Below are positions 39,908 to 63,826 of a stretch of 64,000 bases of DNA, in pieces. The DNA is from Lunularia cruciata (lineage: Eukaryota; Streptophyta; Marchantiopsida; Lunulariales; Lunulariaceae). The DNA lies in contig OX419756.1 of assembly GCA_948567375.1 (NCBI GenBank), positions 46,390,333 to 46,454,332 of the forward strand, given 5' to 3'. The notes beneath the pieces are model-generated. The model saw only the letters and a program-made list of their open reading frames with translations. It did not search any database and was not told the DNA's origin. A program made the position numbers and the translations under genes. How positions within the stretch are numbered: the stretch's first letter is position 1; each line of letters opens with the position of its first letter.

Positions 39908-40359
39908 TGTCACCCCATTTGTAGTTCCGCATCTAGCTGCTCGGACATTGGAGTTCCAATGATAGTAGTTAGAGTTATTCTAGCAGTTTCTCAGGGACTA
40001 CTTTCCGACAGTCAGATTTGGTGTTCAGGGTATTGACTTCACGGTGGAGCCCATCGTCACTTTGCACCGTTCGCACCGTCGAGTGTGCCGTCAGCGGGAC
40101 TATTAGGGTTTCAGTGCTAGCTCAAGTCCAGGGGGTATAGTTTCAAAGGTGAGCTCCAGAGAGCTCACTTCTCTGATGTTGAGCCTTCGAGTTCTTGGCT
40201 ATGGTGGACAGAGGCCGGCGAGCGTCACCTGGATTCTCTATGCTTGAGTGGGTGTGGCTTGACTGTAATCAGTGCCCAGTTGTTGGCAGTTTATAGAGTG
40301 ACAGATCAAGTACTGATCTAAGTTGAGTTGAGTTGAGAGTGGTAAGCAATCTGATTACA
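39908..40359 (+). repeat. element D 5' LTR
   Basis: TGTCACCCC... to ...CTGATTACA. Homologous to 49216-49669 from its first base to CTGATT, after which the two diverge. It contains the palindromic GAGCTCCAGAGAGCTC block and a TTGAG repeat near the end (three units here, four in the 3' copy). An initiator-tRNA-like TGGTATCA occurs at 40411-40418, about 50 bp inside, which is farther from the LTR than usual. Confidence 0.85.
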
Positions 40360-41824
40360 TCAGAGAAGTGAAGTCAGGGGGATATCAGGTGCAGGAACTG
40401 TGAGTGTTGGTGGTATCACCAAGCTCGGTGGATTGTTGGTAGCTCGATTCAAGTTCTGTGTTTCCCTAGTGTGCAGAAGCTTGTTCAAGTGATGCAGATT
40501 TGGTAGTTAGGCGGACGGTGTGCGGAAGCACTGGCCAAATTTTGAGCAAAGAAGGAGCAATTTTTGAGCAATGGTTGTGATTTTGAGCTCAAGAGGTGAA
40601 AGCAAGACCAATTTGCTGCGAGTTGGGCTCAAAAAGTCAAATTGAAGGTGGAGTTGGGAAGCTCTTCTCATGAATTTGTGATTTGGAAAAACTCATGTTG
40701 TGAATTTGGCTCGAGTGGAAAGTTAGCAGAGGATTTGGCGGACAGCCATCTTTAGGGTTTATGTCAGATTTACATCAGATTTAGGGCTAGATTTGGAGGA
40801 GTTTTTGCTGTTTGGCCAGATTTGGAGGAGTTTTGCTAGTTTGGAGGAGTTTCGCCAAGTGGAGGAGGTTTGAAGTTGGCAACAAGAAAGGCCTTATTTG
40901 GCTGAATTTTGGCGTTTAGAGGCTTTGAGGCATAGGGCTGTGGGCTATGAGAGGCTACAAAGGCCTAGCAAGCCAGCTTGCTGGCGTGAGGCTAGCTAGT
41001 TTAGAGTAGATCTTGGTCATTAGTTGGCAAAATCTGCCTTTCTTGCTAGATTGTGCGCAACAAGGTTTGATCCCTAGATCTCTTGTTCCTAGACTAGTGC
41101 CCTAGCCAACTGGTCCACCCTCACTTGTTGTCTTAGTGATTGTGCCACTGTTATCTATACACATGTAGCTTTGGCTAGGAGAGGCAGTTTGATCCCATTC
41201 TTGGTGATCCTGGTAGCTTAGGACTTAGATACAAACTGCTTTTATGTCAAATGCCAAATGGTGGCAGAGTCAGTTCTGTGTTGTGTTATGAGATGAAGGG
41301 TTTTCGTTTAGATTTCTTGTGATTGGACCCCCTCCATTCTCTACTTCCTGTTTGTGCACCACGTTTGTGTGAGGTGCCTTGACTTTTGAGCGTTGGTGCT
41401 CTGGTGTGCTCTCGGTAGTGAGGCTGGAGTGATGACCAGTCAGACTACCTTTGTTTCTCTCCGGTGAGGTAGGAAGTGATGACCTACAGACCGTGAGAGT
41501 GCGTGTTATGATGGCAGGTTACAGGTTGCCCTTCCCCTAGTGTAGTTATCTTGGTTAGAATTACATTAGAGGGTGGTGTTTAGTTGGTGTTGGCACTTGG
41601 TGGGGCACTTGCGGTTGTGACTTGCGGTTGCAATTGGTGGTTCAGGTTTGCTGTTGCGGTTACTTTGTCACAACAAAGTTTGTTGGAGATTCCAAAGGAG
41701 TTAGCCCTACAATACGCAGTGGGTTTACTCGGAGTGGTGCTTGGTATCAGCTTGTATCTCAGGTCCCAGTGAGGGAGGAGATTGACTATGAGTTGGAGTT
41801 TGACACAGGAGCTGAGCACTTGGT
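40360..41824 (+). other. element D leader with antisense tRNA-Arg-like segment
   Basis: About 1.5 kb of untranslated leader, rich in TTTGG/GAGG words. The minus strand of 41050-41125 resembles plant tRNA-Arg: a GGTGGACCAGTTGGCTAGGG region (A box), CACTAGTCTAGGAACAAG (anticodon arm) and GGGATCAAACC (B box). The second copy keeps the same segment at 53311-53384. No gene product is expected from the decayed form. Confidence 0.55.
41050..41125 (-). tRNA. tRNA-Arg-like pseudogene in the element D leader
   Basis: On the minus strand, GGTGGACCAGTTGGCTAGGG, CACTAGTCTAGGAACAAGAG and GGGATCAAACC follow the spacing of A box, anticodon arm and B box of a tRNA-Arg-type gene. Terminal stem pairing is poor. 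Its retention in both element copies shows it was part of the element before they diverged. Confidence 0.4.
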
Positions 41825-43780
41825 GTGTCCGCACCATTGTTGTGGGACATGGATGAGATTTATGGGGCCTCCAAAAGCCCTAGGCGTTACTCTGGTACAG
41901 TGGGTACCATTGAGTTGGATGACTTCATCCAGGAGTTTGATAGTTGGTGTGATCTGCAGCAGATGCGGAACCCGACTTTGTTCACACCCTTCATGGCATG
42001 GAAGGGGTTGTTTTAGCATCTGGAGGGTCCGCCGATGGATGACTACCATGAGTTCAGGAGAGCTCATTTGGAGGAGATTGAGTTATGGAGACAAAATTGG
42101 TCTCCACACTATGTCTCCATCACTTCAGGCTCGGTGGCCAAGAGTAGATCAGTTGTACCCACGAGTTCTAGCTCGAGTAGTGTTGGTGGAGCTAGTAGAG
42201 GTGCATTAGCTGGAGATAGTGCTACTACGAGTGGAGGTACCGTTGCAGGAGGTGGTGTGGTACCGGGGTTTAACCCCATGGTTGAGTTCTTCCTATGTTT
42301 GAGGCAGAACTACCAAGGAGTACGGACTAACAAGCTAAGGAGCTTGCAAGAGTTCCAGCGGAAGGCTGGAGAGAGCCTACGCGAGGCATACACTCGCATG
42401 AGGCGGCTGATCAGTTTCACTCAGGGAGTTACTGAGGCCCAGGCAGTCCAGTTTTGGTATGGGATACTAGACAGGGAGTTGCGACATAGAGTTCGTGATG
42501 CTACGTTGTTACAGGCTACTTTGCCTACTTTGGCACTAGTCTTTGGTTTGGCTGAGCGGATTGAACTCAATATGGTGGAGGAGAGAGTGGTGACATCTGG
42601 ATTTGGTAGGGAGACCTCATCCACAACTGTGACTTCTTCTAGAGTGCAGCAGAGTGCACCACACCCAATTGGTTTTTGAGGACAGGGTGGACAGCCCAGG
42701 TCCTATGGAGCGAGTGGAGGGCCTAGTGGAGTTAGACCCTTACCCTCGTTTTTGGGTCAGCAGTAGCCAAGGAGTGGTGGTGTTGCTTGTTGGACTTGTG
42801 GTGGACCTCACCATAGGAGAGAGTGTACTCAAGGCAGTGGACCTGATACCTCGGGTGCATCACAGCCAGCACAGAGGCAGTGTGAGCACGGCCACAGATT
42901 TGGTCACACTAGTGACCGGTGTTTTGACCTACACCCGGAGTTACGGAGTGGTAAGGCTGCTATGGCAAGTAGTAGAGGAGCTCCAATTCATGGAGGACGA
43001 GGTGGTAGAGGTGGTGGTAGAGGATCTACACCTAGTAGGGGTGCAGTACCTGCCCTTACTTCTGACACAGCTATGGCTACTTGGATTGAGCAGTTGGAGC
43101 AAAGATTGGCTAGTATGGCTATTGCTCAGAAGAGATCAGATTCGGGTGCTGAGGCTTCCACCTCATATGTTGGTGATAGAGATGCTTTGGACTTCATGTG
43201 CGGAGCAGCACAGGTGGATGCATCAGCAGCATTGACTAGGAGTGCAGTACGTGCTCCAGAGCCTAGAGGAGCATCAGTGGAGTTGGACCCACAAAGAGGA
43301 GAGGTTGGGAGACAGGTCAGACTTCCCCAGTCTTTCATGCTATCTGAGGCATTGTAGACAACATCCATGGTTCCTAAACGTCCCAGTGCAGGTGTGGTAG
43401 GTGGTGATGGAGTACATGATGGACTACATGCTAGTCAGCCACCTACTACTACACAGACTAAGTCTAGCATGATGTTGGGAGTGGCTCAACTGATTATGCA
43501 CCATCTTTTGTTTTCAGCCAGTGACATGTTTACATTGGGGGTTGACCCAACCCCAGTGTTCCGGTTGGCTGCCACATTGTGTGAGAGTAGGGATGGTGCA
43601 ATTCCTACTACTAAAGAAGATGTGGTTGGTAGTGGAGCTGACTTGGTTTAGGAGCATGGGATCCGTTCAGCGACCAGTGGTTTATGGCAGGCAGCAACGG
43701 CTAGACTGGAAGAGTTGCCAGCTAGACCGGCCTTTGAGAGAGCGCAGTTTACACCTGGTGTTGTCCTATTGGATAACCAG
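41825..43780 (+). pseudogene. element D Gag
   Basis: One frame with nonsense codons (TAG at 42014, TGA at 42677, TAG at 43355 and 43649, one more near 42760). The N-terminal part has ELDDFIQEFDSWCDLQQM. The capsid-like core at 42280-42560 contains FQRKAGESLREAYTRMRRLI and the typical QFWYGILDRELRHRV. A zinc knuckle CWTCGGPHHRREC lies near 42790-42830. A second knuckle near 42885-42930 has lost one Cys (CEHG...GHTSDRC). A Gly/Arg-rich patch follows (GGRGGRGGGRG), suggesting nucleic-acid binding. Confidence 0.8.
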
Positions 43781-44300
43781 AGGGGGATTTTTTTTTTGGT
43801 GAGACCTTCAGGGAAGGTCTATACACCACAGAGAGTCTTGTTAGACTCTGGTGTGTAGCCCTTTATGTTGGGGAAGGCTGTAGTTGTCGGTCTGGAGTTA
43901 TAGAAGACTGATGTGGAGAGGTGTCCATTTCAGATCCAGACATCTCTAGGTGGTGGTTCGACACAGTACATCACACGTGGAGAGCTTGTTGTCCAAGTTT
44001 AGCTTGATCATCCGACTGATAGCTCAGGCTATTGCGACGATAGTTGAGTCATATGATGTGCTAGTTGGGGGAGCAATGTTATACCCTATGGGTTTCAACA
44101 TTGACTATTGGGAGGAGACAGCCTCTTATGGACCTGGTTGGCAGTCTGGTGAGGGATGGGTATGTCTCCTACCAGTACGCTTCAATAGTGGCAGTCTTGG
44201 CTCACTACAGTTTGGGACCATGGTAGCATCAGTTTTAGCTTTCAGCGATGCAGTTACTTGGCCTGGTGACTTGTTGGAGGGGAACGCCCATGTAGAGGAT
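43781..44300 (+). pseudogene. element D aspartic protease
   Basis: VLLDSGV at about 43835-43855 holds the catalytic Asp-Ser-Gly (43844-43852). It is followed by GKAVVVGLEL and ITRGELVVQV and, after a frame change near 44020-44040, by ESYDVLVGGAMLYPMGF at about 44055-44105, the downstream protease segment. Stops are TAG where Gln is expected. The frame it ends in runs straight into the methyltransferase. Confidence 0.7.
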
Positions 44301-44499
44301 ACTCCAGTACCAGAGGAGATCACTTGGCTTTGGAGTACGAGTGGGATTGTTCCATCCACCTTGGATGTTCCATTGTGGAGTTCAGAGGAGGCATTGCAGC
44401 AGCATGCAGATCAGTTGGTGCAGTAGGCTTGGAGTGGAGCCTTCATACCATCAGAAGATGAGTGTGAGGATGAGCCTCCGGAGGCAATTGCTTTGACAC

Positions 44500-45530
44500 C
44501 TCTGGATACCACACTCATTGCTTGGCAGTATCCAGTAGAGGAGATATGCCTGTTAGAGTTGTTTGGTGGGATCAGCACCGGACTAGCTGCGGTGTTACAG
44601 GTGGGTATAGGAGTACAAAGGTACTTATGTGTAGAGAGAGATGAGACTGCTAGGCGAGTCTCTCTACATCATGTGGCACACTTGGCCTATCGGTACCTGG
44701 AGTTATTACCAATGTCAACAGTCAGAGGTTACCAGAAGGCCCTACCAGGAGACATTTCCTTATTGGGGGCGCATGACCTAGAGAGACATGGGCCTATTCA
44801 CTTGGTGATTTTTGGATGGCCATGTCAGGGACATACACGTGCGGGCAGTGGTTTGGGTTTTCAGGATCCTTGTTCTGGTGTGTTTTGGGAGATGTTATGC
44901 ATACTTTGACATCTCCAGGTTCATCAGTCTGTTTCTCCAGCTTACCTTTTGGAGAACGTTCCTTTGATGGGTGATTCTTGCACTAGAGTGGTGGCAAGTA
45001 CACATCAGGTCCATTCTTGGATGGGACCTGCTGTATTGTTAGATGCAGCCAGAGTGGGATCACGGGCTCATTGTCTTTGTCTTTGGTGGACAAACCTCTT
45101 ACCCAGAGAGGTTCTACAGCACGCTTATAAAGGGATTCAGCGACTAGACCACATTCTTGTTGATGATATCTTGGATGTTGGACGTTAGTCTCAGACAGTG
45201 GTAGTGGCTGATAGGTCACCTATGGCAGTGGTGAACCTAGTTGGACAGCCTAGAGCTGCATTTCCCACACTCATGAGTTTCCCAAGCTCTCATGCTTTTT
45301 GAGAAGCAGGATCTAGACTTGTTTGGGACTCATAGTTACAGTAGTTGGTGGAGCCCAATGCTGATGCGAGAGAGCAGGCAATGGGTTTTCGCACCGGTAT
45401 TACCGCTATTCCAGTAGTGTCAGAGGAATCTAGGCGTCTAGTGTTAGGTCAGGCTATGGACCTAAACTATTTGACCTGGATTGTGAGCCTTGGCTTGGCG
45501 AAGGAGCGTAGGATGCGCTTGATAGGCATC
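44500..45530 (+). pseudogene. element D C5-cytosine DNA methyltransferase domain (DNMT3-like)
   Basis: In the same frame as protease end and RT. Motif I: LLELFGGISTGLAA (from 44553), the S-adenosylmethionine loop. A motif II-like acidic end follows in YLCVERDETARR. Motif IV: FGWPCQGHTRAGSG with the catalytic Cys codon at 44823-44825. Motif VI: LLENVP (ENV at 44952-44960). Motif VIII-like: DAARVGSRAH followed by WWTNLLP, close to the AKEVSxxHRAR...FWGNLP pattern of DNMT3 enzymes. C-terminal motifs are QPRAAFPTLMSFPSSHAF, REQAMGF and LGQAMDLNYLTW (motif X-like). In-frame stops at 44907, 45186, 45300, 45333 and 45342 inactivate this copy. The intact ancestor would transfer a methyl group to cytosine C5. 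Biological role in the element is inference. Confidence 0.88.
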
Positions 45531-45829
45531 ACCACTCGGACACTTGTGAGCCCTGTGCCTAACAAGACGATTCAGGCACATGCTGGGGGCGATGGACCGA
45601 GTGGACATGGTATTCTTGGGACACATCCAATAGCTACTAGGGAGAGTGGTCTACTTGGAGTCCATCTAGGTGAGCGTGGGCTACTTGGATTACACCCTTG
45701 GTCCACATGGGATGCAGCTAGAGGACGTGTGGAGCTTGTAGCCAAAGTGGAGGGAGTTTTTCACATAGAGGTTGGGACTTCTAGTGGTCAGGAGCATGAC
45801 ACTATTGCTCCCAAGGGCCTAGTGTAGCA

Positions 45830-46850
45830 GTCAATCAGTACGTCTTCCACTCCTACTACAGTTACACATGATACTTGGGAGCCAGATCTTGGACCCAAGC
45901 TTACTGGAGAGGAAAGACGGAGGGTTTGGAGGTTCTTGAAGAGTCACACGAGTTGTTTTGCCTTTAGTATGAAGGATTTGGGTGCTTTGAAGGGACCTGG
46001 TATACGGATTGAGCTGACTAGCGACACACCAGTTTTCCGACGTCCTTATTGATATAGTGAGATGGAGAGGACATTGATTCAGAGCCGGAGTAGTGAGCTT
46101 TTTGAGGCTAGTTTGGTGGAGATTTCACATGGAGAGTATGCATCAGCGACAGTGATGCCAGCCAAGAAGGATATGCATGGCAACTATAGAGATAGGCGGA
46201 TGTGTGGAGATTACCGTCCTATCAACCGACAGACCAGGGCTGATTGGTATGCCATGCCTACACCGAAGGAGATTTTTGATGCAATTGGGCATGCAAAGGT
46301 CTTCAGTACTTTGGATCTTCGAGCGGGATATCATCAGTTGCCGATCAAGGAGGAGGATAAGTCCAAGATAGCATTTTGGGCTATTGATCCTCACGGCAAG
46401 GATGTGTTATATCAGTGGAGGTTCTTACTATTTGGGTTAAAGAACGCTCCTGCTGAGTTCCAAAGGGTCATGGATAGGATCCTAGCTGGATTGGATTTTG
46501 CTTGGTGCTATATTGATGACATTTTGGTTTATAGCACTACTGTGGAGGAGCATGAGAGACAATTGTTGGAGGTGTTTGAGAGGTTGAGATTTGATGGACT
46601 CAAATCACATCCTGGGAAGTGTAGGTTCTTCCACGAGTAGGTTGAGTATTTGGGTCACACTATCTACCCTAGAGGACTTGGTGTTCAGCAGATCAAGGTG
46701 GAGGCTATTGCACATATTCCTCGGCCTACGGATGTGAGCAGAGTGCAAGCATTCCTTGGGTTGGCGAACTTCTATCGCCGCTATGTTAGAGGATTTAGTG
46801 CCATTGCCAAGGCCTTGACGAGGCTGACCAAGCTTACACAAGTGGTGTTG
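45830..46850 (+). pseudogene. element D reverse transcriptase
   Basis: Standard Ty3 RT. The N-terminal strand VFRRPY lies just before a TGA at 46050. Next are ATVMPAKKD, RRMCGDYRPINRQT (fingers), FSTLDLRAGYHQLPI (first catalytic Asp), WRFLLFGLKNAPAEFQRVMD, and CYIDDILVYS with the YIDD box at 46509-46520. A TAG at 46638 precedes VEYLGHTIYPRGL and FLGLANFYRRYV. Upstream at 45900-46020 is the usual linker. Same frame as the methyltransferase. Confidence 0.9.
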
Positions 46851-47330
46851 GGGAGATGAGCAGGAGAGAGCTTTTGTAGAGCTCAAGGAGAGGTTGACAT
46901 TTGCTCCTATTTTGAGGAGACCAATCAGGGGACGACCATTTCAGGTTCACACTGATTGGAGTATGTTGGGGCTTGGAGCGGTGCTCACCCAGCATGATGA
47001 TGAGGGGAAGGAGTTTGTAGTGGCCTATGCTAGTCGCTCCAAAAATTCAGCGGAGGCAAAGTATAGTTCATATGAGGGAGAGTGCTTGGCAGCAGTTTGG
47101 GCAGTAGCACATTTCCGATGTTACCTATTTGGTAACCTCTTCACTCTCATTCACTGATCATCAGCCGCTGAAGTGGTTGATGGAGTCCAACAAGCTTTCA
47201 AGGAAGCTTGCACGATGGGCTCTGATTTTACAGGAGTATGATTTCACGGTTGTTCATAGACCTAGAGTGGTGAACCGTGATGCAGATGGGTTGAGTAGAA
47301 ACCCATGTCCCAGCCAGCAGGATCAGACCG
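46851..47330 (+). pseudogene. element D RNase H
   Basis: After a one-base shift near 46850, the text reads FQVHTDWSMLGLGAVLTQHDDEGKEFVVAYASRS-type sequence (first Asp in HTD), then AEAKYSSYEGECLAAVWAV (Glu). Beyond a second shift near 47153 it continues TDHQPLKWLM and VNRDADGLSRNP. Catalytic residues are present, but the frame is broken. Confidence 0.85.
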
Positions 47331-47479
47331 GAGCACATTGGCATGGTGAGACAGATGAGGAGATGGTGCCATGTTGGCATGCATTGACCTTTCTGTGTAT
47401 ATTTGCAGAGACTTTGGTGGTATTTCTCTCAGCGCATATAGGAGGAGTTATTGAGGTCACAGATCCAGAGAGTGAAGAT

Positions 47480-48720
47480 ATCTGTACAATTCAGTGAGAC
47501 ATTCATGATGATGTCTTAGTGATGTACTATCTTTGCACTGGTGTTGTGGGTGGCACAGTTGGGGCCAAGGAGAGAGACCATGTTCTTCAGCAAGCCAGAC
47601 GGTTCAGATTGGAGGGTAGACACCTTTTGCGTGTATGGGAGGATGGTAGAGTGTGAGTAGTACCACTTCCATCTCAGAGACCACAATTGGTCCGTCATGC
47701 TCATGAGGAGCTAGGACATTTTGGAGTAAAGCATACATATAGCTTACTCTAGAGTCATTATTGGTGGCACGGTATGCAAACCAAGGTGTAGCAGTTTGTT
47801 GCCAGATGTGTGGTTTGTGACCGAGTTAGAGCATCATTCAATGCTCCTATGCCACAGTTACACCCATTACCTATCATGGGATTGGGTTACCATTGGATTT
47901 TGGACTTTGCCGGACCTTTACCGCTGATTGTGAGACATCATCGGTATGTTTTAGTGATGGTGGAGCACTTCTCCAAGTGGATTGAGTTGGTGGCACTTCC
48001 TGACAAGTCTAGTGAAGGGATAGCTTACTCGTTCCTGGATCGAGTTCTTAGTCATTTTGGTGCACCAGTTGAGGTTTTGACTGATCAGGGTACAGAATCT
48101 TGGGGGAGTTTCAGGTCTTGTGTGACAAGGCTTTGATTGATCATCCTACTACATCCCGAGATCACCTTGAGGCAGATGGCTTAGCAGAGAGAGTGGTTCA
48201 GACGGTGAAGAGAGGATTGCGAAAGTATGGTTTGCAGAGAGGCCACTTGGGAGATTGGGATCTCCATTTACCTTGGTTGGCCATGGGCTATCGGTTCAGC
48301 CGGCAAGCCTCCTTAGCATCCTTCTCTCCATACTTTCTACTCTATGGACAAGATCCAGATTTACCTGTAGCCATTCGTCAAGATGCTACTATAGTTTTGG
48401 ACTTGGATGGTCCCAATGTATGGATGAGCGCATGTTCTCAGCGGGCAGAGATCTTTTGGAGAGTGATGCCGATGGCCTTTGAGAACTTGACAATTGCTCA
48501 ACATAGAGATACTTTACGCTATACAACCATTTGAGGAGGAGGTTATAGACCCTTGATCCATCGATTTCATCCAGGCGACTATGTATATCTACAACAGACA
48601 ACATCGACAACACTTGATGTTTCTATAGGCCGCACTATCTTGAGAGTGCACGAGGTTCTGCCATTTGGAGTCCTTGTGTTAGAAGGACGTGATGGTGTTG
48701 TTTGGAAGGATCATGTGCGC
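47480..48720 (+). pseudogene. element D integrase
   Basis: The zinc-binding HHCC region lies at 47690-47825 (HAHEELGHFGVKH, then CVVCD). The DDE core follows: WILDFAGPLPL (first Asp), KWIELVALPDKS, VEVLTDQGTE (second Asp), a one-base shift near 48100, then ADGLAERVVQTVKRGL (Glu). The C-terminal part at 48550-48720 (FHPGDYVYLQQ, then VLVLEGRDGVVWKDHVRNC) is a GPY/F-like module. Stops near 47495, 47656, 47750, 47790 and 48532 are TAG/TGA. Confidence 0.88.
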
Positions 48721-48798
48721 AATTGTGCGCCATGCCACCTCCCAAACATTGATGGTACTATGGACCCAAGCTTGGCACTTGTACGTGCAGGCTTGAGG

Positions 48799-48939
48799 TG
48801 TATGTTATGTGGCTCTTTTGGTGGAGCTGCTACTATGTTAGTGTGTGATAGCTATTCGAGAGGATGGCATATGGCATGTATGACTCCTCCCCTTACGGTG
48901 GTTCCTCAAGGACAATGGTTATGTCCTAGATGTACTTGA
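48799..48939 (+). pseudogene. element D C-terminal PHD-finger-like domain
   Basis: Fused in frame after the integrase C-terminal module. The pattern is CMLCGSFGGAATMLVCDSYS, then RGWHMACMTPPL, and WLCPRC before a TGA stop. It matches a PHD finger (C4HC3, with the CD..S..GWH..C..PPL...W.CP.C core) except that the fourth zinc ligand is Tyr (codon 48853-48855). PHD fingers usually read histone H3 tails (family knowledge), so it may replace the chromodomain as a targeting module. The older copy at 63413-63545 has the same Tyr. Confidence 0.82.
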
Positions 48940-49215
48940 CCTATAGCTAGTTCATTCTTTATATGGTATAGATTGCAGACAAGCGACTAACGATGGGGCT
49001 CCATAGCACCTGGCCTCTTGATCTTTGCCCATTAGAGGGTATACCATATACTTAGAGTAGATGGCTATCTAGAGTTAGAGGGACCTAATTGCTAGCTAGG
49101 GAGGCGATTGTGGCACTTTAGAGTCTATGTATGACTTATGTGTGAATTGTGCTTCTATAGTGAATGATGTTGACAGCAATGTATGTTGTGTAGCGATATA
49201 TATATGCACGATAAC

Positions 49216-49776
49216 TGTCACGCCATTTGTAGTTCTGCATCTAGTTGCTCGGACACTGGAGTTTATGTGATAGTAGTTAGAGTTATTCTAGCAGTTTCTC
49301 AATGACTACTTTCTGATAGTCAGATTTGGTGTTTGGGGTATTGACTTCACGGTGGGGCCCACCATCACTTTGCACCGTTTGCACCGTTGAGTGTGCCGTC
49401 AGCGGGACCGTTAGGGTTTCAGTGTTAGCTTGAGTCCAGGGGGTATAGTTTCAAAGGTGAGCTCCAGAGAGCTCACTTCTTCGATGTTGAGCCTTCGAGT
49501 TCCTGGCTATGGTGGACAAAGGCCGGCGAGCGTCACCTGGATTCTCTATGCTTGAGTGGGTGTGGCTTGACTATAATCAGTGCCTAGTTGTTTGCAATTT
49601 ATAGAGTGACAGATCAAGTACTGATCTGAGTTGAGTTGAGTTGAGTTGAGAGTGGTAAGAAATCTGATTTTTGTGGCACTTTAGAGTCTATGTATGACTT
49701 ATGTGTGAGTTGTGCTTCTATAGTGAATGATGTTGACAGCGATGTATGTTGTGTAGCAATGTATATACTCATGACA
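49216..49776 (+). repeat. element D 3' LTR with aberrant right end
   Basis: 49216-49669 matches the 5' LTR. It is then followed not by the expected end but by a copy (about 49671-49771) of the ~100 bp lying just upstream of this LTR (49110-49215), and by TGACA at 49772-49776. The switch happens at a GATT shared by both places. Host sequence resumes at 49777. Confidence 0.8.
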
Positions 49777-51235: not shown

Positions 51236-51720
51236 GAGTAAAGAAGGAATTATATATAAATATTTGGCTAAATAATCTACATGTTAACTTTTCCATGCAA
51301 CTTTATGTATAAATTGAAGTTTAGTTCTTTATAGTATATTATTCATTTTTCTTGAATGTTGAAGGGAGGCATATGCAAAAGTAGAGGTGAAGAATTTTAG
51401 AGTAGGAATGCAAGTGCTCAAGTACATGATGGTGGATTTGTACTTGATCAAGATATCTAATTCCTAAGGGTTGAGAAGAAGCGAAGTAATGCAAAGAAGA
51501 ATCAATTTGATTCATAACAGTACCACTACCATAGAAACAAAAAGCAAGGGCATTAAGCAAACAAGAAGACTCCTTTAGGGTCATGCTTTCTAAGAAGTAT
51601 AGTACATGCTTTCATAGTCATAGTCATTGGAGCAAAGTGAACCATCACCTTCAAGAGTAACTAGGAATTTATTAGCATTGAATGCAATTTTAGTTTTCTT
51701 TTATTGTAGTGTGCTCGTCA
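51236..51720. other. no gene seen
   Basis: Short AT-rich spacer between the solo LTR B and the older Ty3 copy. Open frames are short and unsupported. Confidence 0.4.
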
Positions 51721-52150
51721 TGACATTTGTAACATCAAAGCTAGTTTGTTATGTTGCTTGAGTGATCATTTTGGTGGTCATTGTGTGTTATTAGTAGTTT
51801 CTCAAGGACTATTTAGTGGTAGATAGATATGGTATTATGTTGAATAATTGCACCATTGAGTTATTAATCACACCATTAAATGGGCAACCAAATATGCCAT
51901 TGGAACTAGATTCTTGGCCACTCCAAAGGAGGTATACCTCAAAGTGACACTCTTAAGAGCTCACTTCTTCTATGTTATGTCTTCCAGCTCTTAGTTAGAC
52001 GGGCAAAGGCCGGCAAGTATCACCTTGATTCTTTTAGGTAGAGTTGGTGTGGCTTGACAATGTGATCAAGGCTTGTTGGTAGTGTACATAAGGTATTGAG
52101 TTTTCATATTTGAGACTTGATTTGAGTTGTGATAAATTCCTTAGACTTTA
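51721..52150 (+). repeat. older copy 5' LTR
   Basis: Starts TGACATTTGTAACATC. It follows the element D LTR through 'tagtagtttctcaaggactatttag', 'gagctcacttcttctatgtt', 'gggcaaaggccggcaagtatcacc' and 'gagttggtgtggcttgac'. The right border is uncertain by tens of bases. Confidence 0.7.
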
Positions 52151-53310
52151 GTAATAATCCTAAGTATGACGTAGATCTAAAATCTACTAAAATGGACAAT
52201 CCTTCAAAAAACAAACTCAAAAAGGGCCAAATGGTGTGGGAATGCCCCACATGTTGAGGCATTGTCAATAAAAAAGGATGAACATTCCATAAGTTTATGA
52301 TTTTATGCTTTACCCAAGACTAATGAGAGAGGTCTTTTGGCCCTTACAAGCTAAAGAAGCCTCCTTGGACACTTTAGGGCCTATGGTATTTATGCATTAT
52401 GGGGAATAGGATTCTCATATACTATTGATTACATAGAAGAAATGTAGAGTGAAATTGAGCATTGGTTGTATCTCTAAGCTTGGTGTGATTGATTATATCT
52501 TTGATAGTTGTCACTCAAATTTGATTTTAGTTGAGTGGATCATGTGTTATTGACTTTGCTATAGATCTCACATTCAAGTTTGTAGTTGAGTAGAAGTCTT
52601 GCTCAAATTTCTCCAAATTAAGATTGATTTGAGGAAGAGAGGTGTCCAATTTCATTGATTGGAGAGGCCAATTTGAGAATGAGGGATAAAATTTGTGATT
52701 GAGGCTTGTAAATTTGAGTTGTGACCAAAATTTGGGTTGGATTGTAGAACCTATCCTCCTCAATTAGGGATTTGAAGTCTTGAACTATAAATTTAGGAAA
52801 ATTAGCTAGATTTGGTAGAAAACAAATTTGAATTGGCTAGATTGGATGCACATCTTCATGTATTCTTGATTTATGGTCTAATTTGGTGGAAATCAACTAG
52901 ATTGAAAGGTCTACCAGATTTGGCAAAGGTCAACTAGACTTGGAGAGTGTTTGAATCCAAATCCCTAACTACCAAAATTGGGAAATTTGGCCAAATTTGG
53001 TAGAAAGGAAGTTTGAATTGGCCAGATTTGAGCACACCCACCTTCATGTATTCTTGTGTCAAATTCAGAGGTAGTAGAGGTTAGCTAAATTAAGAGGTAT
53101 TATATTTGGTTGAATTTATTATATTTGGTAAAATTCAACCAAATTTAGAAAGAGTTTGAAGTAGAAAGAAGAAAGACTTCTTTTGGCTAAATTTTGGCAT
53201 ATAGAAGCTTTGAGGCATATGCCTATAGGCTAGAGAGGTCACAAAGGTTTAGAAGAGTTGGCTTGCTACCGTGAGGCTAGCTAATTTAGAGGATTTAGCC
53301 TCTTAGTAGT

Positions 53311-53384
53311 GTATATAGTAAGGTTTGAATCTTGGACCTTTGGTTCTTAGACTAGTGCCTTAGCCAATTGGTCCATCCTCACTT
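53311..53384 (-). tRNA. tRNA-Arg-like pseudogene in the older leader
   Basis: The minus strand reads GGATGGACCAATTGGCTAAG, then GCACTAGTCTAAGAACCAAA and a B-box-like AGATTCAAACC. It resembles plant tRNA-Arg in the D arm (GGCTAAGGC), anticodon arm and T arm. It sits at the place in the leader equivalent to 41050-41125 in element D. The acceptor stem is not clearly paired, so it is a relic. Confidence 0.4.
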
Positions 53385-53894
53385 GTTGTTTAAGAGATTG
53401 GTAGATTCATATCTATACTTATGTAAGGTCGGCTAAGAAAGGATAGTTGATCCCATCCTTGGTGATCTTGGTAGTATAAGAGTAATAAAACATTCTTATT
53501 ATATCAAATATCAAATATCAAATGGTGTAGAGTAGTTTGATAGGATTTGTGAGATGTAGGATTACCATTTGGACCTCTTGTGATTGGACACCCCTTCCAT
53601 TTTAGACTTCTTGTTTTTGCATCATATTTATGTGAGATGCTTTGATATTTTGAGCTGATCTAGTGTGCTCTTGGTAGTGAGCCTAGAGTGGTGATCAATC
53701 AAACTATATATATTTCTTCTTGATGAGGTAAATGATGAACTATAGACCATGAGATGTGGTGATGAAAGGTTACATGTCGTCTTTTCTCTTAGTATAATTG
53801 ACATGGTTAGAGAAATTAGGTTGCATTAGTGGGTGATTTATGGTTGTTTGTGGGACTTGGTAGTTAAGGTCTTAGTTTGGGGTCCATTATCACA

Positions 53895-54396
53895 TGTAAC
53901 AATCTTAACACAAAACATACCATTGAAATCTCCAATACTCCAATGCTTCAAAAGAACACTTTAACTTTAGTAGTCAAGAGCTACACCCTAAGATTAAGTA
54001 CATGGGTTGGTGACATGTAAGTCCTAGTTCCATTTGGTTGGTCAAACAAGTTTGACCAAAGGGAATTTTTTGAGAATCATTTTGTAGAAAGCTTAAAATA
54101 GAATAAAAGTAGTACCATTGGAAAGATTTCAATGGACAAACCAAATAGGAGTAAAATCAAAGCCTTGTCTCCAAAAGGAGAAGTAAAATTTTATTTTTCA
54201 AGTGCTAATTCTTTGTTTAGGCCTTCAAAATTGGCTTTGAAGGTTTTATTATGTTTTTGGCCTTTGCTCTATTAGTGGAAGTCCTCTCTTGGTGACCTGT
54301 GTATCCACTCAACTTAGACCATCATGTATAATATCTAAAAATATAATGCCAAGCCAATTTTCATCTTTAGCTAATTTTTCTAGCTAATGTATCACA
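53895..54396 (-). repeat. solo LTR family B in the older copy's leader
   Basis: TGTAACAATC... to ...GTATCACA, 502 bp, minus orientation. Flanked by TCACA (53890-53894) and TCACC (54397-54401). The matching place in element D reads TCACA once, so these are a target duplication with one change. Confidence 0.8.
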
Positions 54397-54529
54397 TCAC
54401 CATATAGTTCTTTACGATTTGAGATTTAGGGTTTAAGGTTTACACTTGATATCAACTAGTATTTGAGGTCTTAGTGAGGGACTAGATTGATTCTGATTTG
54501 GAATTTGACATAGAAATTGATCTAGTTGA

Positions 54530-56760
54530 GAGTGCACACTGGATGTCTATATCATTATTGTGAGACATGGAAAAATTTAAGGAGCCTCCAAAGGCCTCAA
54601 GTGCTATATTAGTACAATGGGTACCATTGAGTTAGATGATTTCATCCAAAAGTTTGATAGTTGGTATGGTTTGTAGTATATGTGGAACCTAACTTTGTTC
54701 ATACACTTCATGGCATGAAAGGAGCCATTGTAGCACTTGGAAGGTTTAGCTATAGATGACTATCATGTGTTTAGTAGACTACCCTTTGAGGAGATTGAGC
54801 TATGGAGATAATATTTTTCTCCACTTTAGATTCAATTTCTAGAGGCTAACTAATAGTACCCACAAGTTCTAGATCTAGTAGTATTGGTGTATCAAATGGA
54901 TATAAACTAGTTAGATATGGTGCTACTATGAGTGGAGACACTATTGCAAGCGGTAATGTAGTATCAAGGTTTATCTTCATGGTGTAGTTCTTCTAATGTT
55001 TTAGGTAGAAATACTTGTAAGAGTTCTAAAATAAAGCAAGAGAGAGCATATGCAAGGCATACACTTGCATGAGATGGCTAATCAATTTCACTCAAGTAGT
55101 AATGGAGACATAGGCCATCCAATTTTGATATGAGATAGTGGGTAAGGAGCTGCAATGTAGAATATATGATGTTATGATGTTATAAGTTACCCTACCAACT
55201 TTGGTGGTAGTCTTTAGTTTAGCATAACACGTTGAGCTCAATATGGTAGAGGAGATAATGGTGACATTTGGATTTAGTAGGAAGACCTCATCCATAGTTG
55301 TTACTATTTTTTATTATAATTGAGTGCAAGACAATATGTGGGCTTTTGAGACAGAGTGGAAATCCTTGATCTTATAGAGCAAGTGGAAGGTCTAGTGCAC
55401 TTAGACCCTTGCACTCATTTTTTTGTCAACAACAACCAATGAGTGTTGGTGTTTCTTGTTGGATTTACGGTGAACCTCACCACAAGAAAGAGTGGACCTA
55501 GGGTAGTGGACATAATACCTTGGGAGCACCTCAACCAACCTAGAGACAATGTGACCATTGTACAAATTTGGTCACATTAGTGAGAGATACTTTGATTTAC
55601 ACTTGGAGTTACAAAGTGGTAGTGCTACTATGGGAATGTAATCTGCTAAGGATAGGAAACATGAAGAGAAATACAGAAGAAGAAACACACAATTTCACAC
55701 TCAACCTCTGATGCCTCCACATATATATGCACCTTGATATGTATTATATATTATTATAGGGGACTCCTCCAAAAGAAGCTTTACCTTTGGATTCGATAAA
55801 TGAATTGGTGACCTATAAGTGAGCTTTGCACTAAGATTGGCTGCATGTATGGGTGACATGTCAATTTTGATCCTATATGGTTGGTCAATCCATCTTTGAC
55901 TAGAGGTAATCTTTAAGGAATCTTCTTGTAGGAATCTCCAAATTGTGTTGATGAGGTACCATTTGAAAGCTCTTGGATGAGACAAACCTTGGGGAGAGGG
56001 AGGCCAGCCTCTTTTCTATTGGATGGGGGGAATCTGCACATTTTGTAGGCCTAATTCATCTATTTAGGCCTTTGAAATTGGCTCTAAAGTTTCTATGCTA
56101 TTTTTGGCACTACCCTATTAGTAGAAGTCCTCTTTTGGTGACACCTATATCTGAACTACCTAGCCTATCATGCATAACATCCTTCCAGATGTTACCAAGA
56201 CAATTTCCACCTCTAGATAATATATCTAGCTTTTGGTTTCACAAATTCAAGCTATTTTTGCCTCTTGCCCTATTAGTAGAAGTACTCTTTTGGTTACACT
56301 TCTATCTAATCTACCTTGCTTATCATACATAATATCCTTCTAGATGTTACCAAGCCAATTTTCAACTCTAGATGATATGTCTAGCTATTGTGATTACATG
56401 CAAAAGGTAGAAGAGCCACAGATCATGGAAGGCAAGGTGGTAGAAGTGGAGGTAGAGGATGCTCACCTAGTATGGGTAGTATACTTGCCCTTACATTTAA
56501 TATAGCTATGAATGCTTGGATTGAGCATTTGGAGCAACAAGTGGCTAACATAGCTATAGATTAGAGGATATTAGATTCAAGTGTTGAGGCTTCCACCTAT
56601 TATGTTGGTGATAAAGATTTCCTTGACTTCATATGTGGATCAACAAAGTATATGCATTTAAAACAATAACTAGGAGTGTAATCCATGCTCTTGAGCCTAG
56701 AGGAGCATCAATGGAGTTGGACACACAAAGAGAAAAACCTTGTAGACAAGTAGATTTCCT
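54530..56760 (+). pseudogene. older copy Gag, split by LTR B
   Basis: Follows element D gag: the 'ttgagttagatgatttcatccaa' start, a core near 55010-55260, knuckles near 55460-55600 (a cttgttggatttacggtgaacctcaccac region, then tgtgaccattgtacaaa, which keeps the Cys lost in element D). After the LTR B insertion (55637-56398), the Gly/Arg-rich and C-terminal parts follow at 56399-56760. Stops in every frame. Confidence 0.7.
55637..56398 (-). repeat. solo LTR family B inside the older gag, with internal tandem duplication
   Basis: Begins TGTAATC and ends GATTACA, a 7-bp terminal inverted repeat; 762 bp. Bordering words GGGAA (55632-55636) and TGCAA (56399-56403) each differ by one base from GGCAA, the single word at the matching site in element D. 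A ~140-bp tandem duplication lies near 56110-56395, like that in the plus copy at 50434. Confidence 0.85.
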
Positions 56761-57189
56761 TAGTCTTCCATACTTTTTGAGACACTATAGATGACATCCA
56801 TGGTTTTTAGATGTCTTGGGCCGATTATGGTAGGTGGTGATGGAGTGCAAGATGGACTAGATATTAGGCAACCACCTATTTCTACCAAGAATTTTTTTAG
56901 CATAATATTGGGAATAGCTCATTCTATTATCCACTCTCTTTAATTCTCAACTAGTAAGATGTGTACATTGGAAGTTGATCTAGCTCTACTGTTCCTATTT
57001 CCTACCACCCTTTGTAAGAATATAGATAGTGTGGTTCTTCCTTCTAGAGTAGAGGTGGTTGATGGTGCAACTAGCTTGCTTAAGGAGCATGGGATTTGCT
57101 CTACTATTGTTGGCTTGTAGTAACTACAAATTGCTAGATTGCAGGAGTTACCTACTAGACTTGCATTTGAACAAGTAAGGTTTATACCG

Positions 57190-57534
57190 TGAGTTATCTT
57201 CTTGGACAACTAGAGTGGGATTTCTATTTTGGTTGGAAATTCAAGGAAGATCTATGCACCACAAAGGGTATTGTTAGACTTTGGTGTGTAGCCTCTTATA
57301 TTAGAAGAGGCTATAGTTCTTGGTCTTGGGCTACAAAAGACTGATGTTGAAAAGTATCCATTTTAGATTTAAACATTTTGAGGAGGTGTTTCCACATGGA
57401 ACATCATATGTGGGGAGTTCATTGTCCAACTTTAGGCTAGTCATCCAATTGATAGTTTGTGATGAAACCCCATGCCATTGTGATAATAGTAGAGTTGTAT
57501 AATGTGTTAGTTGGTGGACCATTGTTATACCCCA
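57190..57534 (+). pseudogene. older copy protease, cut by a TIR element
   Basis: Matches element D from 'ttattgttagactttggtgtgtag' (the catalytic DSG has become DFG) to the 'gtgttagttggtgga' segment. It is interrupted at 57534 by the TIR element and resumes at 58968. Confidence 0.65.
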
Positions 57535-57666
57535 TGTGCAAGCCTTCTTAATAGTAAGTTTTCCTACGTATAACACAAATTTCTTATTTGAGGATAAATT
57601 AAATTAAATTTGTGGTATTTTCAAGTTAGATGTGATTTATTTTTCTTTTCTTTCTACTGATTTCAT

Positions 57667-57873
57667 TGTAGAAATTGGACACTAAGCTTTCAAGATTTGT
57701 TTCTTAATACTTTATAACACCTTCTTCTTCTATTTTTAAATCTTATACAACATCATTGTTATCATCTCTATATAATATATGCTCTATAAGATATAAAAAT
57801 AGAAGGAGAAGATGCTACAAAGTATTAAGAAACCAAAAAATCTTGAAAGCTTACTTTGCAATTTCTATAATGA
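57667..57873. repeat. large imperfect hairpin inside the TIR element
   Basis: The arm at about 57667-57747 (GTAGAAATTGGACACTAAGC..., TTTCTTAATACTTT...) is complementary to 57790-57873, with roughly 80-bp arms and a ~40-bp loop. Foldback of this length can feed small-RNA production; that use is inference. Confidence 0.75.
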
Positions 57874-58379
57874 GTAAGTGAGCCATAGACTTTGTAGCAT
57901 TATCATTATAGGTAAGAGCATATGGTTTGTCTTGTACTCACCAAGTAAATTCACCCCATAATACTTGATTTACTTGATGGATAAAAGTTGATTGACTAGA
58001 AAGGAAGAGATATGCCTTAAAATTTCACTTTCTTCTAAAAAATTATGTTTCTCTAAAAAATTAACTAATTCAAGCAATTTAATGAATTTTCACAACATGA
58101 ATCATGAATCCTCATTGTACTAACTTTCTCATGGGATATAGAAAGGCAATTGCATAGTTTAGAATGTTTGGATATAAAAACATTTGTGCAATTTAGAATG
58201 TTCTAGTAGTTGCACATTGTTTCATGTTCTCAAATATTTACAAGAAACACATTTGGAAAACCTCCAAATAAAATGATCCCACCAGTGAAGAGACAATAAA
58301 GGATCAACTTCTCATTTACCCCTCAAATCATGTAATACATGAGGAAAGGAAGTTGAACTACAAGCACTCAAAAATGTAA

Positions 58380-58840
58380 ACTATGAGGTAGCGGATTGAA
58401 CAATAAGCACAAAGCAAGTAGCAAACTACAAGAGAACTAAGAATGCAATTTAGGGGACAAGAACTAAAAATGTAATTTTCAAGGGCAATGGGCTGAATGA
58501 TAATCACATAGATCATAGAAAATTGCAAGAGAACTAAGAATGCAATTTACAAGGGCAATGGGCTAAATGACAAGCACAAGAACACATCAAAATGCAAGAG
58601 AACTAAAAAAGTAATTTATTGATTGTAGTGGGCTGAATGACAAGCACTAAGAATAGAGAAAATTTCAAGAGAACTAAGAATATAGTTTTTAAGGGTAGTG
58701 GGCTAAGCAAAAAGCACAAATAATGCAACAAACTACAAGATACAATTTTGGGTAGTGGGTTGACTGAAAAAACTGCAAGAGAACTAACGAATATAACTTA
58801 CAAGGTAGTAGGCTGACTTAAAGAACTACAACTAACTTAA
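58380..58840. repeat. degenerate tandem repeats, unit about 75-80 bp
   Basis: About six units share 'gcaagagaactaagaatgcaa' and 'gggctgaatgacaagcac'. Units become less alike toward the right. They lie within the TIR element. Confidence 0.7.
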
Positions 58841-59389
58841 GAAAACTTAACACAATTGACGTGAAAAACTACAATTAACCTATTGGTTATTTGTGGGGTG
58901 TGAAGAAGGTCCATTTGTGGTATTTTCAGGTCTTGTAAATCAAACCCAAAAAAAGGAGGCTTGCACATTGGTTTTGATATTCATTATTTGGGGGAGATAT
59001 CTTCCTATTGGCAAGGTAAGAAATCAAGTAAGGGACATGTATATTGCCTATTGGTGTGTTGTAGAATTGGCATTCTTGGCTTGCTATAATCAAGGAGCAT
59101 GCATCACTTTCAGTTTTCAATGGTTTTGTTACTTGGCTTTGTGAGTTATTGGAATGGAATGGCAATGAAAAGGATACTCTGGTACCAAAAGAGATCACTC
59201 AAATGAGGAAAAAAAGTGGAGTTTTTCTCATCCACCTTGGATGTATCATTGTGGAGTTATAGCATCATATGAATAGGTTGCTACAATAGTGTTGGAGTGG
59301 AGCCTTTGTACCACCAATGGACTAGTTTGATGATGATCCTTTAGAGTTTGTAACCTTGTCAACTTTGGAGACAATACTTATTGCTTGGA

Positions 59390-60250
59390 AATATCTAATG
59401 GAGTGATATACCTATTGGATTGTTTGGTGAGATCAACATTACACTACTTGTAGTATTGCAAACAAACATATGGGTTAAGAGGTACTTGTATGTGGAGAGG
59501 GATGAGATTGATAAACAATTATCTTTACACAATGTTACACATTTGAGATATTGGTATCTTGAGTTATTACCAATGTCAACAATTAGGGATTACCTAAAGA
59601 CCTAATATCAAACATTTTGTTGTTGGGTGCACAAGATCTAGAAAGCCATGATATTATTCATTTGGTGAGTTTTGTATGGCCATGTCAAGGATATACACAT
59701 GTTTGCAAGATCTTCATTCTAGTGTGCTTTGGGAGATATTATGTTTAATAAAACATCTCTAGGTTTATTAGGTAGTTTACATAGCATAAATTTTAGAGAA
59801 TGTCATTTTGATGGCAAAGAAAATATCAAGTCTAGTCTTGGATTTGCCTTGTAGTGTTGCTAGATGTGGCTAAAGTTAGATCTTGAGCCCATTCTCTTTA
59901 TCTTTGGTGGAAAAACTTTTACTTAAAGAGGTTCTACAATGTGCTTTTGATGGGATTCAACAACTATCTTACCTCACTATTGATGATATTTTTTATGTTG
60001 GGTGTCACTCTCACATGGTGAGAGCAATTGATATACCATCCTTGGTAGTGGTGAACTCTGTAGTGCAGCCTAGAGCCGCTTTTCCCACACTCATGATTTT
60101 ACTATCCTCTTATGCTTATTGGAATAACCATAGGAATAAGGTCTTGGACTTGTTTTGGACTCATAATTATAGCAATTGATAGAGCCCAATGTCAATAAGA
60201 GAGAGTGGGAAATGGATTTCCATATCAATAGTACCTCCATGTAGGAAGTA
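59390..60250 (+). pseudogene. older copy methyltransferase
   Basis: Matches element D through the motif I region near 59415-59455 (degraded), RYLYVERDEIDKQ, TTATTACCAATGTCAACA, a WPCQG codon run near 59680-59692, a shifted LENV near 59794-59806, the VAKVRS.AHSLYLWW region near 59868-59905, and QPRAAFPTLM near 60068-60097. Stops and shifts throughout. The motif X part is cut by the LTR B fragment at 60259 and reappears near 60775. Its presence shows the domain was in the family before the two copies separated. Confidence 0.8.
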
Positions 60251-60258
60251 TTAGTGTT

Positions 60259-60740
60259 TGTAATACCATTAGTTAGATAAATTATCTAGATGTGGAAATT
60301 GGCTTGGTAATATCTTTAGAATTATTATATACAATGGTGTAAGTAGATCAGACAGAAGTGTCCCCAATAGAATACTTCCACTAATAGTGTAGAGGCCAAA
60401 AATACCCTAAAAATTTTGGAGCCAATTTTGGTGGTCTAAACAAATGAATTAAGCCTTGAAAATAGAAATCTTCCTTCCTCTCTAAGAAAAGGGGCATTTT
60501 CTCATCTTTCTCTTGTTTGTCTCACCAAGATCTTTCTAATAATACCTCACACATGTTATTATGAGCTTCCTACAAGAAGATTCCCCAAAGATTTTGTTTG
60601 GTCAAACTTGTTTGACCAACCAAATAAGACAAGGATTGACATGTCACCAATCCATGTAGCTAATCTTAGAGTATAGCTCATTGACATGTCACCATTCCAT
60701 GCATTTGGTTATGGGTTTAGCTACAAGAGTCTCCAACTTT
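60259..60740 (+). repeat. LTR family B fragment in the older methyltransferase
   Basis: Starts TGTAATACCATTAG and follows the plus-orientation copy at 50434 through 'ggtaatatct', 'aagtagatcaga', the 'agccaattttgg' block and 'gttgaccaaccaaat', then breaks off near 60740 without the R/U5 end. Confidence 0.7.
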
Positions 60741-61329
60741 AAAGAAAATTACCTCTACTTTGGCTACCAACTCCACATGAAGTATTTGACCTAGATTGTG
60801 AGCCTTGGATTGGCTGAGTAACATATGATACACTTGACAAACATCACTACTTGGATACTTGTGAGTTTTGTTTGAGTACATATCATTCAAACCTATGCTT
60901 GGAATGATGGATAAAGTGTGCATGTTATTCTTGGTACACAACAAGTAACTAATAGTGAGAGTGGTCTACTTGGGGTACATCCAAGTGAGTGAGATCTTCT
61001 TGTGATACATCATTAATTTACTTGGGATGCAACTAGAGGATGTGTGGAGCTTGTAATCAAAGTAGAGGGAGTTTTTGCTCTAAATTTGGGGACTCTTGCA
61101 ATTGGGGGTTTAGTATTCCTCCCAAGGCCCCAATATAACAACTAATCAGGGTGTCCTCCACCTCTATAGCAATTACAAAGGATACTCGGGATTAAAACAT
61201 TGGACCCAAGCATACAAGAGTGGAAAGATAAAGAGTTTGGAGACTCTCAAGGATTGACATGAGTTATTTGTCTTTTGTATGAAGGATTTGGATGCTCTAA
61301 AATAATTTGAAATTTGAATTTAGTTTACT

Positions 61330-63140: not shown

Positions 63141-63412
63141 CATAGGGATACCTTACATTATGCCACTATTTAAGGAGGAGGTTATAGATTCTTGATATGC
63201 TGGTTCCATCTAGGTGATTATCTGTATCTATAGTAAACTACAACAACTCTTGATGTAACTATAGACCACATTATCTTAGAAGTGTACAAGTTTTGCCTTT
63301 GGAGGACATGATGGTGTGTTTTAGAAGGATCATGTGCACAATTTTGTGCCATGCTACCTCCTAAAAATTTATGGCATGATAGACCCCAACTTGGCAATAA
63401 AACATATTGGCT

Positions 63413-63545
63413 TGTAGTGTATTTTATGTGGCTCTTTCAGTGGAGCTATTACATTGGTGTGTGATAGCTATTCAAGAAGATGGCATATTTGACCCCTTCC
63501 CTTATGATGAATCCTTAGGGGCAGTGGTTATGTCCTTCATATATT
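63413..63545 (+). pseudogene. older copy PHD-like domain
   Basis: Reads CILCGSFSGAIT, LVCDSYSRRWH and, after a small deletion, GQWLCPS. The Tyr at the fourth zinc-ligand position (63469-63471) is the same as in element D, so it predates their split. Confidence 0.7.
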
Positions 63546-63826
63546 TGATGCTATAGCTAGTCTACTCTTATGTGATATTGATTGCAAGTATGTGAATAAC
63601 AATAGGATTTGATAGAAACCAATCTTGTGATCTTTTCTCATCATAAGACATATCACATACTTGGAGTAGATTGCTATCTAGAGTGAGATGGACCTAACCT
63701 CAACTAGGGAGGAACTAGTGTGTGTTTGGAGTTTATGTGTAACTTCTATATGAGTTGTGCTTCTATAGTATATGATATTGACAATGATGTATGTTGAGTA
63801 GCTATGTATACGCACAAAAGCTATCA

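Follow-up and report, generated by a model that had tools for sequence, protein, structure and literature searches.

A decayed Ty3/gypsy retrotransposon with a DNMT3-type DNA methyltransferase domain, one of a large family in the genome of the land plant Lunularia cruciata

Why should a transposon encode the kind of enzyme that silences transposons? This question, standing since 2018, is raised again by a locus on contig OX419756.1 of Lunularia cruciata (assembly GCA_948567375.1). Within a stretch of 64,000 nucleotides (positions 46,390,333 to 46,454,332 of the forward strand; hereafter the window, whose numbering is used throughout), a first-pass annotation made from the letters alone had noticed a Ty3/gypsy retrotransposon encoding its own DNMT3-like DNA methyltransferase (MTase). 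Our analysis confirms that positions 39908-49776 hold a decayed Ty3/gypsy element (copy 1) with a DNMT3-type domain. The element is longer than first described, ending in repeats beyond a PHD finger that stands behind the integrase. Its parts are as follows.

39908..49776, plus strand: whole element, copy 1, 9.87 kb, with termini TGTCA...TGACA
39904-39907 and 49777-49780: flanks of copy 1, AGGA and AGGC, a probable 4-bp target duplication with one change
39908..40356, plus strand: repeat A1, the 5' terminal repeat, with no B before it; 91% identical to 49216-49669, Kimura two-parameter (K2P) distance 0.081
42017-42676, plus strand: first open piece of gag, which together with the zinc-knuckle piece spans 42017..43354
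42767-43354, plus strand: zinc-knuckle part, second open piece of the gag region
43950..44423, plus strand: protease-side stretch of open reading frame 1 (ORF1), 56% identical to Marchantia protein P0005
44427..45485, plus strand: DNMT3-type C5-methyltransferase domain, motifs I to X, with five in-frame stops
45825..45833, plus strand: leaky-stop context TAG CAG TCA (UAG-CAR-YYA), between the MTase and the reverse transcriptase
46053..46637, plus strand: reverse transcriptase (RT), PF00078 E 8.6e-25
46828..47154, plus strand: RNase H, PF17919 E 9.9e-33
47792..48531, plus strand: integrase, core 47792-48133 and C-terminal part 48085-48531, PF00665 E 2.7e-9
48784..48936, plus strand: PHD finger behind the integrase, without one of its zinc ligands in copy 1, PF00628 E 7.8e-9
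49109..49214, plus strand: repeat B1, directly before A2, 93% identical to B2
49216..49669, plus strand: repeat A2
49671..49776, plus strand: repeat B2, the 3' end of the element

The RT-RNase H-integrase order, a DDE (rve) integrase and a Gypsy-type RT are all present in copy 1. In line with the Ty3/gypsy assignment, the RT has three PDB matches with E values no higher than 1e-8, of which Ty3 takes the first two places (E 2.3e-29 and 1.6e-28; we take entry 4ol8 to be Ty3). The integrase core is 76% identical to Sphagnum P0040 and the C-terminal part 75% to Marchantia P0043; the gag region matches PF03732 at E 0.014, under the Pfam cut-off, and its gag and zinc-knuckle pieces are 60% and 53% identical to Marchantia P0005. 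The protease that had been named on the upstream side has no Pfam match in copy 1, whereas the motif reaches Pfam in the relatives P0178 and P0180, which run protease-MTase-RT-RNase H-integrase, with a PHD finger in P0180. Likewise, the single reading frame proposed for protease, MTase and RT is indeed shared with the RT but is not open, having eight stops within 44040-46637; that at 45825 is kept in relatives, and the remaining ones look like decay. Copy 1 is dead, because the MTase holds five stops, the near-invariant Arg of motif VIII is missing and the PHD zinc pattern is incomplete.

The MTase motifs lie where they had first been read: LELFGGISTG, PCQ with the catalytic Cys at 44823-44825, LENV (ENV 44952-44960) and AARVGSRAH...WWTNLLP. 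With the five stops read as X, the domain matches PF00145 at 25.2 bits against a cut-off of 22 (E 1.4e-5); the longest unbroken piece alone reaches 18.2 bits (E 0.0018), below the cut-off. Its best PDB match is DNMT3A (E 2.7e-6, and 5e-22 with a 23-row profile), DNMT2 being far weaker against the profile (E 2e-4), and PDB sequence and structure searches both place DNMT3 closest among C5-methyltransferases. Motifs I, IV (PCQ), VI (ENV), VIII and X stand in unpermuted order, motif VIII being broken in copy 1; the DRM arrangement, with motifs VI-X before I-V, is found in a host gene (L039) and not here. The catalytic Cys and the EN of motif VI are kept in all 13 relatives aligned. Judged by these sequence features, the domain is confirmed as a DNMT3-type C5-methyltransferase, and intact members of the family may have de novo methylation activity. 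In the algal or metagenomic proteins P0178, P0180, P0184 and P0185, motif IV reads GWECQG instead of GWPCQG, a Glu replacing the Pro before the catalytic Cys.

The domain is a stable part of its family, as had been supposed from two copies. The host assembly, 565.8 Mb in 74 contigs of which eight large ones sum to 558 Mb, contains 1,537 exact occurrences of one MTase 24-mer (752 forward, 785 reverse; reversed control 0). This 24-mer is present in all 20 MTases sampled, and its count is a lower bound on MTase copies; if full-length at 9.9 kb each, such copies would total about 15 Mb. The 20 sampled copies, about every sixth (counted by hand) among the 123 best PF00145 matches, were chosen in a way that favours well-kept copies and guarantees an MTase; RT and a PHD finger lie downstream in all 20, gag is found in 16, and the PHD zinc pattern is kept in 17. 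On the stretch of contig C1 covered by both match lists, seven RT matches were found independently of the MTase, and five of these carry the MTase 24-mer and two do not (compared by eye, at an expected offset of 1,176 bases upstream of the RT). Five of the 20 copies have a stop-free MTase, three of these with all five checked motifs. Of the two outcomes that the first-pass annotation named as refuting, absence of a PF00145 match and a domain confined to this one locus, neither is what we find. Divergence between the 5' and 3' A repeats is 0.014-0.054 K2P in 12 copies, compared with 0.081 in copy 1; the other eight, whose fetched 10 kb did not include both ends in full, were left out of the age and target-duplication counts. 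The family is large and was probably active recently.

The position of the domain between protease and RT holds, but the MTase forms the C-terminal end of a Gag-protease product before a leaky stop and is not a simple Pol domain. This is clearest in a 9.3-kb contig (L027:1-9285) in the cyanobacterial metagenome-assembled genome AVDCRST_MAG81, whose ends overlap by 127 bases; it is plainly a eukaryotic Gypsy-DNMT3 element and a contaminant of that public genome. In L027, TAG CAA TCA closes ORF1 (Gag-protease-MTase), and ORF2, which runs from RT to PHD, starts in frame with the codon that follows. At the homologous stop, copy 1 has TAG CAG TCA (45825), and an older copy farther along the window (copy 2) has TAA CAA CTA at 61136. 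A CAR YYA context after UAG is essential for readthrough in tobacco mosaic virus, in which UAA in place of UAG lowered readthrough (PMC2754532; here and below, statements on published work refer to the accessible portions of the cited papers). This context follows 1 of 299 stop triplets in L027 and 6 of 3,783 in the window, two of the six being the copy 1 and copy 2 sites; among the 20 genome copies the stop is TAG in all and the full motif is present in 18. From its Gag-side position before the leaky stop, the MTase would be produced alongside Gag and would outnumber RT and integrase. The PHD finger at the far end of the polyprotein has among its closest solved relatives the fingers of CHD4, KMT2D, PHF12, PHF21A and KDM5. 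The tryptophan of the H3K4me3 cage, at the position where we take it to lie, seems absent, and our guess is that the finger may read unmodified H3.

The repeats depart from a standard long terminal repeat (LTR) layout. Each of the 12 genome copies with both ends read begins with A and closes with B-A-B, and none shows a B ahead of its first A; only three had more than 107 bases of flank, and in the other nine the absence rests on the target duplication standing directly before A. The elements end in TGTCA...GACA (AACA in one copy), and 11 of the 12 sister copies have a perfect 4-bp target duplication. TG...CA termini with a short target duplication are therefore found, and two identical full LTRs at the ends are not, the layout being A-coding-B-A-B. 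The inner B-A joint reads GACA-2nt-TGTC in most copies; one form of it, GACAGCTGTCACGCCA, has 612 genomic occurrences (reversed control 0), and the form GACAGCTGTCACG is present in L027 too. This joint resembles two element ends that have been fused and retained internally. No tRNA-Met primer site was matched in L027 with up to two mismatches. A simple DIRS element was considered and rejected, since the window and the relatives have a DDE integrase (rve) where a DIRS element has a tyrosine recombinase.

A search of 5.8 billion proteins (E <1e-3, 7,995 candidates scored) returned 51 relatives, namely 19 from Marchantia polymorpha (55-64% identity for the ten that cover >90% of the query), two from Calypogeia fissa (64 and 55%), two from Sphagnum (56 and 45%) and 28 unnamed. 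As 43 of them also match the protease-side stretch and 27 gag, the 51 are retroelement proteins. Starting from a distant relative, a second search found 40 proteins and adds Closterium, Mesostigma viride and whole polyproteins; neither search returned a protein named from Klebsormidium. A scan of viral contigs gave 26 loci with short matches of 25-56% identity. The host has a DNMT3-like gene of its own (L038, at least two exons) besides the permuted DRM L039, and in a tree that includes L038, L039 and human DNMT3A, the 19 retroelement MTases group together to the exclusion of these three (100/100), their clade having a long stem. A host DNMT3 or DRM pseudogene is rejected, as both host genes fall outside this clade; with only three cellular sequences in the tree, there is room for a second capture from an unsampled donor. 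Partial matches were left out of the MTase trees (12 of the 51 in one tree; the two others used chosen representatives). Between elements, MTase and RT identities correlate (r 0.80, permutation p 0.0002, 12 elements).

The DNMT-bearing retroelements of charophyte algae and dinoflagellates that the first-pass annotation mentioned are indeed described, in dinoflagellates and Klebsormidium nitens, by de Mendoza et al. 2018 (PMC5890265). A 2025 paper repeats this for both streptophytes and dinoflagellates, and the families it names are Copia and DIRS (PMC12344493). The closest is KnitGypsy-Dnmt3, which shares the LTR Gypsy domain set, a streptophyte host, a DIRS-like repeat layout and a DNMT3-type domain that lacks the DRM rearrangement and falls in a divergent clade separate from multi-exonic DNMT3 (PMC5890265). 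In that element the domain is put in the Pol ORF (PMC5890265), whereas here it stands before the leaky stop, the host is a land plant and there are at least 1,537 MTase copies; kinship between the two was compared by description only. A word search of the main text of PMC5890265 did not find 'PHD'. As a Gypsy element with an in-frame DNMT3 domain and DIRS-like repeats, the present family is a new land-plant instance of this known kind; the first observation is real and its interpretation sound. SymbioDIRS-Dnmt3 and SymbioLINE-Dnmt of dinoflagellates are likewise retroelements with a cytosine methyltransferase in large numbers, but they are a DIRS element with a tyrosine recombinase and a LINE, and independent captures (PMC5890265). 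An orchid Gypsy with an AlkB demethylase of N6-methyladenosine (m6A) is another plant Gypsy that captured a nucleic-acid-modifying enzyme, though a different one and in an additional ORF (PMC9289625); the account given there of a screen covering 121 angiosperm genomes mentions no DNA methyltransferase, and the main text lacks the term. Plant host DNMT3 (Physcomitrium, PMC6453930; here L038) shares the catalytic class, whereas L038 is a host gene outside the retroelement clade. Marchantia is listed with MET, CMT and DRM, with no DNMT3 in the list (PMC5784723); we made no search for a cellular DNMT3 there. In their accessible portions, the plant and bryophyte methylation papers PMC5784723, PMC6453930, PMC8566409, PMC9516144 and PMC10952607 leave DNMT-bearing elements unmentioned. 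The suspicion that a land-plant family was undescribed agrees with the literature searched, whose scope left out preprints and most subscription papers and in which we found no land-plant report. Nor did we find leaky-stop expression or chromatin-reading features described for such elements in this literature.

Copy 2 carries the domain too, as had been noted, with a match within which the DNA is 68% identical to copy 1 over 44088-45388. Its recognized parts are as follows.

51715..64000, plus strand: copy 2, older, CpG-depleted, with nested inserts; runs off the window end
about 51715-52150: A repeat of copy 2
58967-60219: MTase match of copy 2
61136: leaky-stop site of copy 2, TAA CAA CTA
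63716-63822: repeat B of copy 2, the next A starting at 63824

Over blocks of more than 700 bases the two copies are 68-74% identical, copy 2 being richer in AT. The observed/expected ratio of CpG is 0.35 in copy 1 and 0.05 in copy 2; the host-gene region has 0.81, L027 has 0.78 and window positions 1-20000 have 0.16. Evidently the window copies were methylated in the past and lost CpG by deamination, like repeats here generally, and encoding an MTase therefore does not keep an element free of methylation. A dispersed repeat of a few hundred bases lies in both orientations at 53973-54399, 55637-56398, 60257-60707, 50434-51230 and 12803-13189, three of its copies being inside copy 2, which also holds a cluster of ~70-bp repeats at 58388-58758.

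How, then, might the enzyme serve the element? Self-masking, methylation of its new copies and interference with host silencing had been suggested as possible roles in the first-pass annotation. The account we favour, with a probability of about one half, is that copy 1 belongs to a family that captured a DNMT3-type MTase long ago and kept it, and that the MTase methylates the element's own complementary DNA (cDNA) by way of leaky-stop expression. Translation of Gag-protease-MTase would stop at the leaky UAG, while a fraction of ribosomes would read on to yield RT-RNase H-integrase-PHD. The MTase, in Gag-like excess, would be packed into the particle where cDNA is made and, most likely, would methylate this cDNA before or during integration. 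The new copy would enter the genome already marked, and may be spared treatment as foreign DNA or do less damage to the host; target choice is probably aided by the integrase's PHD finger, acting as a reader of histone H3.

Selection on the MTase bears on this account. Across species the domain is well conserved. Between copies 1 and 2 the ratio of nonsynonymous to synonymous rates is 0.45 [0.32-0.63] for the MTase and 0.36 for the RT. In the RT (p 0.02) and on the protease side (p 0.025), amino-acid changes make up a smaller share of the variants found in at least three copies than of single variants, and the integrase core goes the opposite way (p 0.41). Within this genome, the signal of selection on the MTase is suggestive but falls short of significance.

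Several observations weigh against methylation of cDNA through leaky-stop expression. Non-coding control sequence read as codons gives ratios of 0.65-0.86, with intervals that overlap that of the MTase. The nonsynonymous/synonymous ratio of MTase variants is 1.04 for shared and 1.86 for single variants (p 0.11), and 5 of 47 shared variants involve stops. The MTase is less conserved than the RT between the window and Marchantia (P0009, 66 vs 76%; P0018, 60 vs 73%), and among the 20 sampled copies, motifs IV and VI are intact in 18 each, motifs I and X in 14 each and motif VIII in only nine. The leaky stop is not universal, MTase and RT forming one unbroken protein in P0177-P0180, and RNA structure 3' of the stop is strong in L027 (z -3.4) and not in the window copy (z -0.9), for which reason we claim no structural signal there. 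In P0181 and P0183 the MTase stands on the Pol side, between RNase H and integrase, with PHD behind the integrase; P0181, P0183 and P0182 group together (100/99 in the MTase tree, with P0047, whose order is not known, and 98/96 in the RT tree; a smaller 19-MTase tree does not resolve the elements of this order), and at least one relocation of the domain inside the polyprotein is therefore probable. Finally, KnitGypsy-Dnmt3, the closest published enzyme, had no activity in yeast, which its authors call inconclusive (PMC5890265).

The MTase could instead act on the host in counter-defence, spreading or misdirecting methylation or competing with host DNMT3 and DRM, and thereby weakening targeted silencing. 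The very high copy number beside a host with its own L038 and L039, and a chromatin reader in the same polyprotein, would suit this. We nevertheless think it unlikely, as the window copies are CpG-depleted (0.35 and 0.05 vs 0.81), hence methylated, like the repeat-rich 1-20000 (0.16), and as Gag-side production points to the particle. It also seems improbable to us that the domain is a passenger, kept for folding, nucleic-acid binding or packaging while its catalysis no longer matters. The non-significant selection on the MTase (p 0.11), the broken motif VIII in 11 of 20 sampled copies and the inactivity of KnitGypsy-Dnmt3 in yeast (PMC5890265) fit such a role, but the catalytic Cys and the EN of motif VI persist in the 13 aligned relatives, and the five stop-free copies are still 71-75% identical over the domain to P0002 and P0003 (Calypogeia), P0005 (Marchantia) and P0016 (Sphagnum). 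Methylation of the element's genomic RNA, which a Gag-linked enzyme would meet first and which de Mendoza et al. raise for the LINE type (PMC5890265), is very improbable given the DNMT3 sequence and fold, the far weaker DNMT2 match and the methylation of DNA by SymbioDIRS-type retroelement DNMT3 domains (PMC5890265). Chance resemblance, or a misassembly that fused a host gene with a retroelement, could appeal only to the sub-threshold Pfam score of the longest unbroken piece, and is refuted by the copies, the same arrangement recurring in the genome copies sampled, in proteins from Marchantia and metagenomes and in L027.

Elsewhere in the window, the minus strand holds remnants of another LTR element at 3374-5467 (chromodomain PF00385 E 9e-9; weak RNase H match, E 0.006) and a further reverse transcriptase at 16666-17331 (PF00078 E 1.6e-7), of non-LTR look by eye. 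A host sugar-phosphate/phosphate translocator gene with four exons (by eye) lies at 25220-27511 on the same strand and groups with Calypogeia in a quick-method tree (SH-aLRT 91); taken together with the nearest kin of the MTase, this makes a liverwort the most likely host. On the plus strand, 21556-23412 reads through 619 codons without a stop and has cysteine-rich repeats of the CEARYDQGM type; nothing in Pfam matches it at E 0.01.

A wider account, offered tentatively since we put the odds somewhat against it, is that a single ancient capture of DNMT3 founded a lineage extending from streptophyte algae to bryophytes, whose members would make the MTase in structural amounts by way of a virus-like leaky stop and carry a histone-reading finger on the integrase, a single polyprotein thus being both chromatin reader and DNA methylation writer. 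In the present host, MTase copies would be some hundred to a thousand times as numerous as host DNMT genes (1,537 against a few host genes) and may shape the methylome, and DNMT gene counts made by domain search in bryophyte genomes could be misled by them. The family extends the question of why a transposon encodes such an enzyme to land plants, among them the genetically tractable Marchantia, and adds a testable anatomy to it: Gag-side leaky-stop expression, a PHD reader and a repeat layout that keeps joined element ends.
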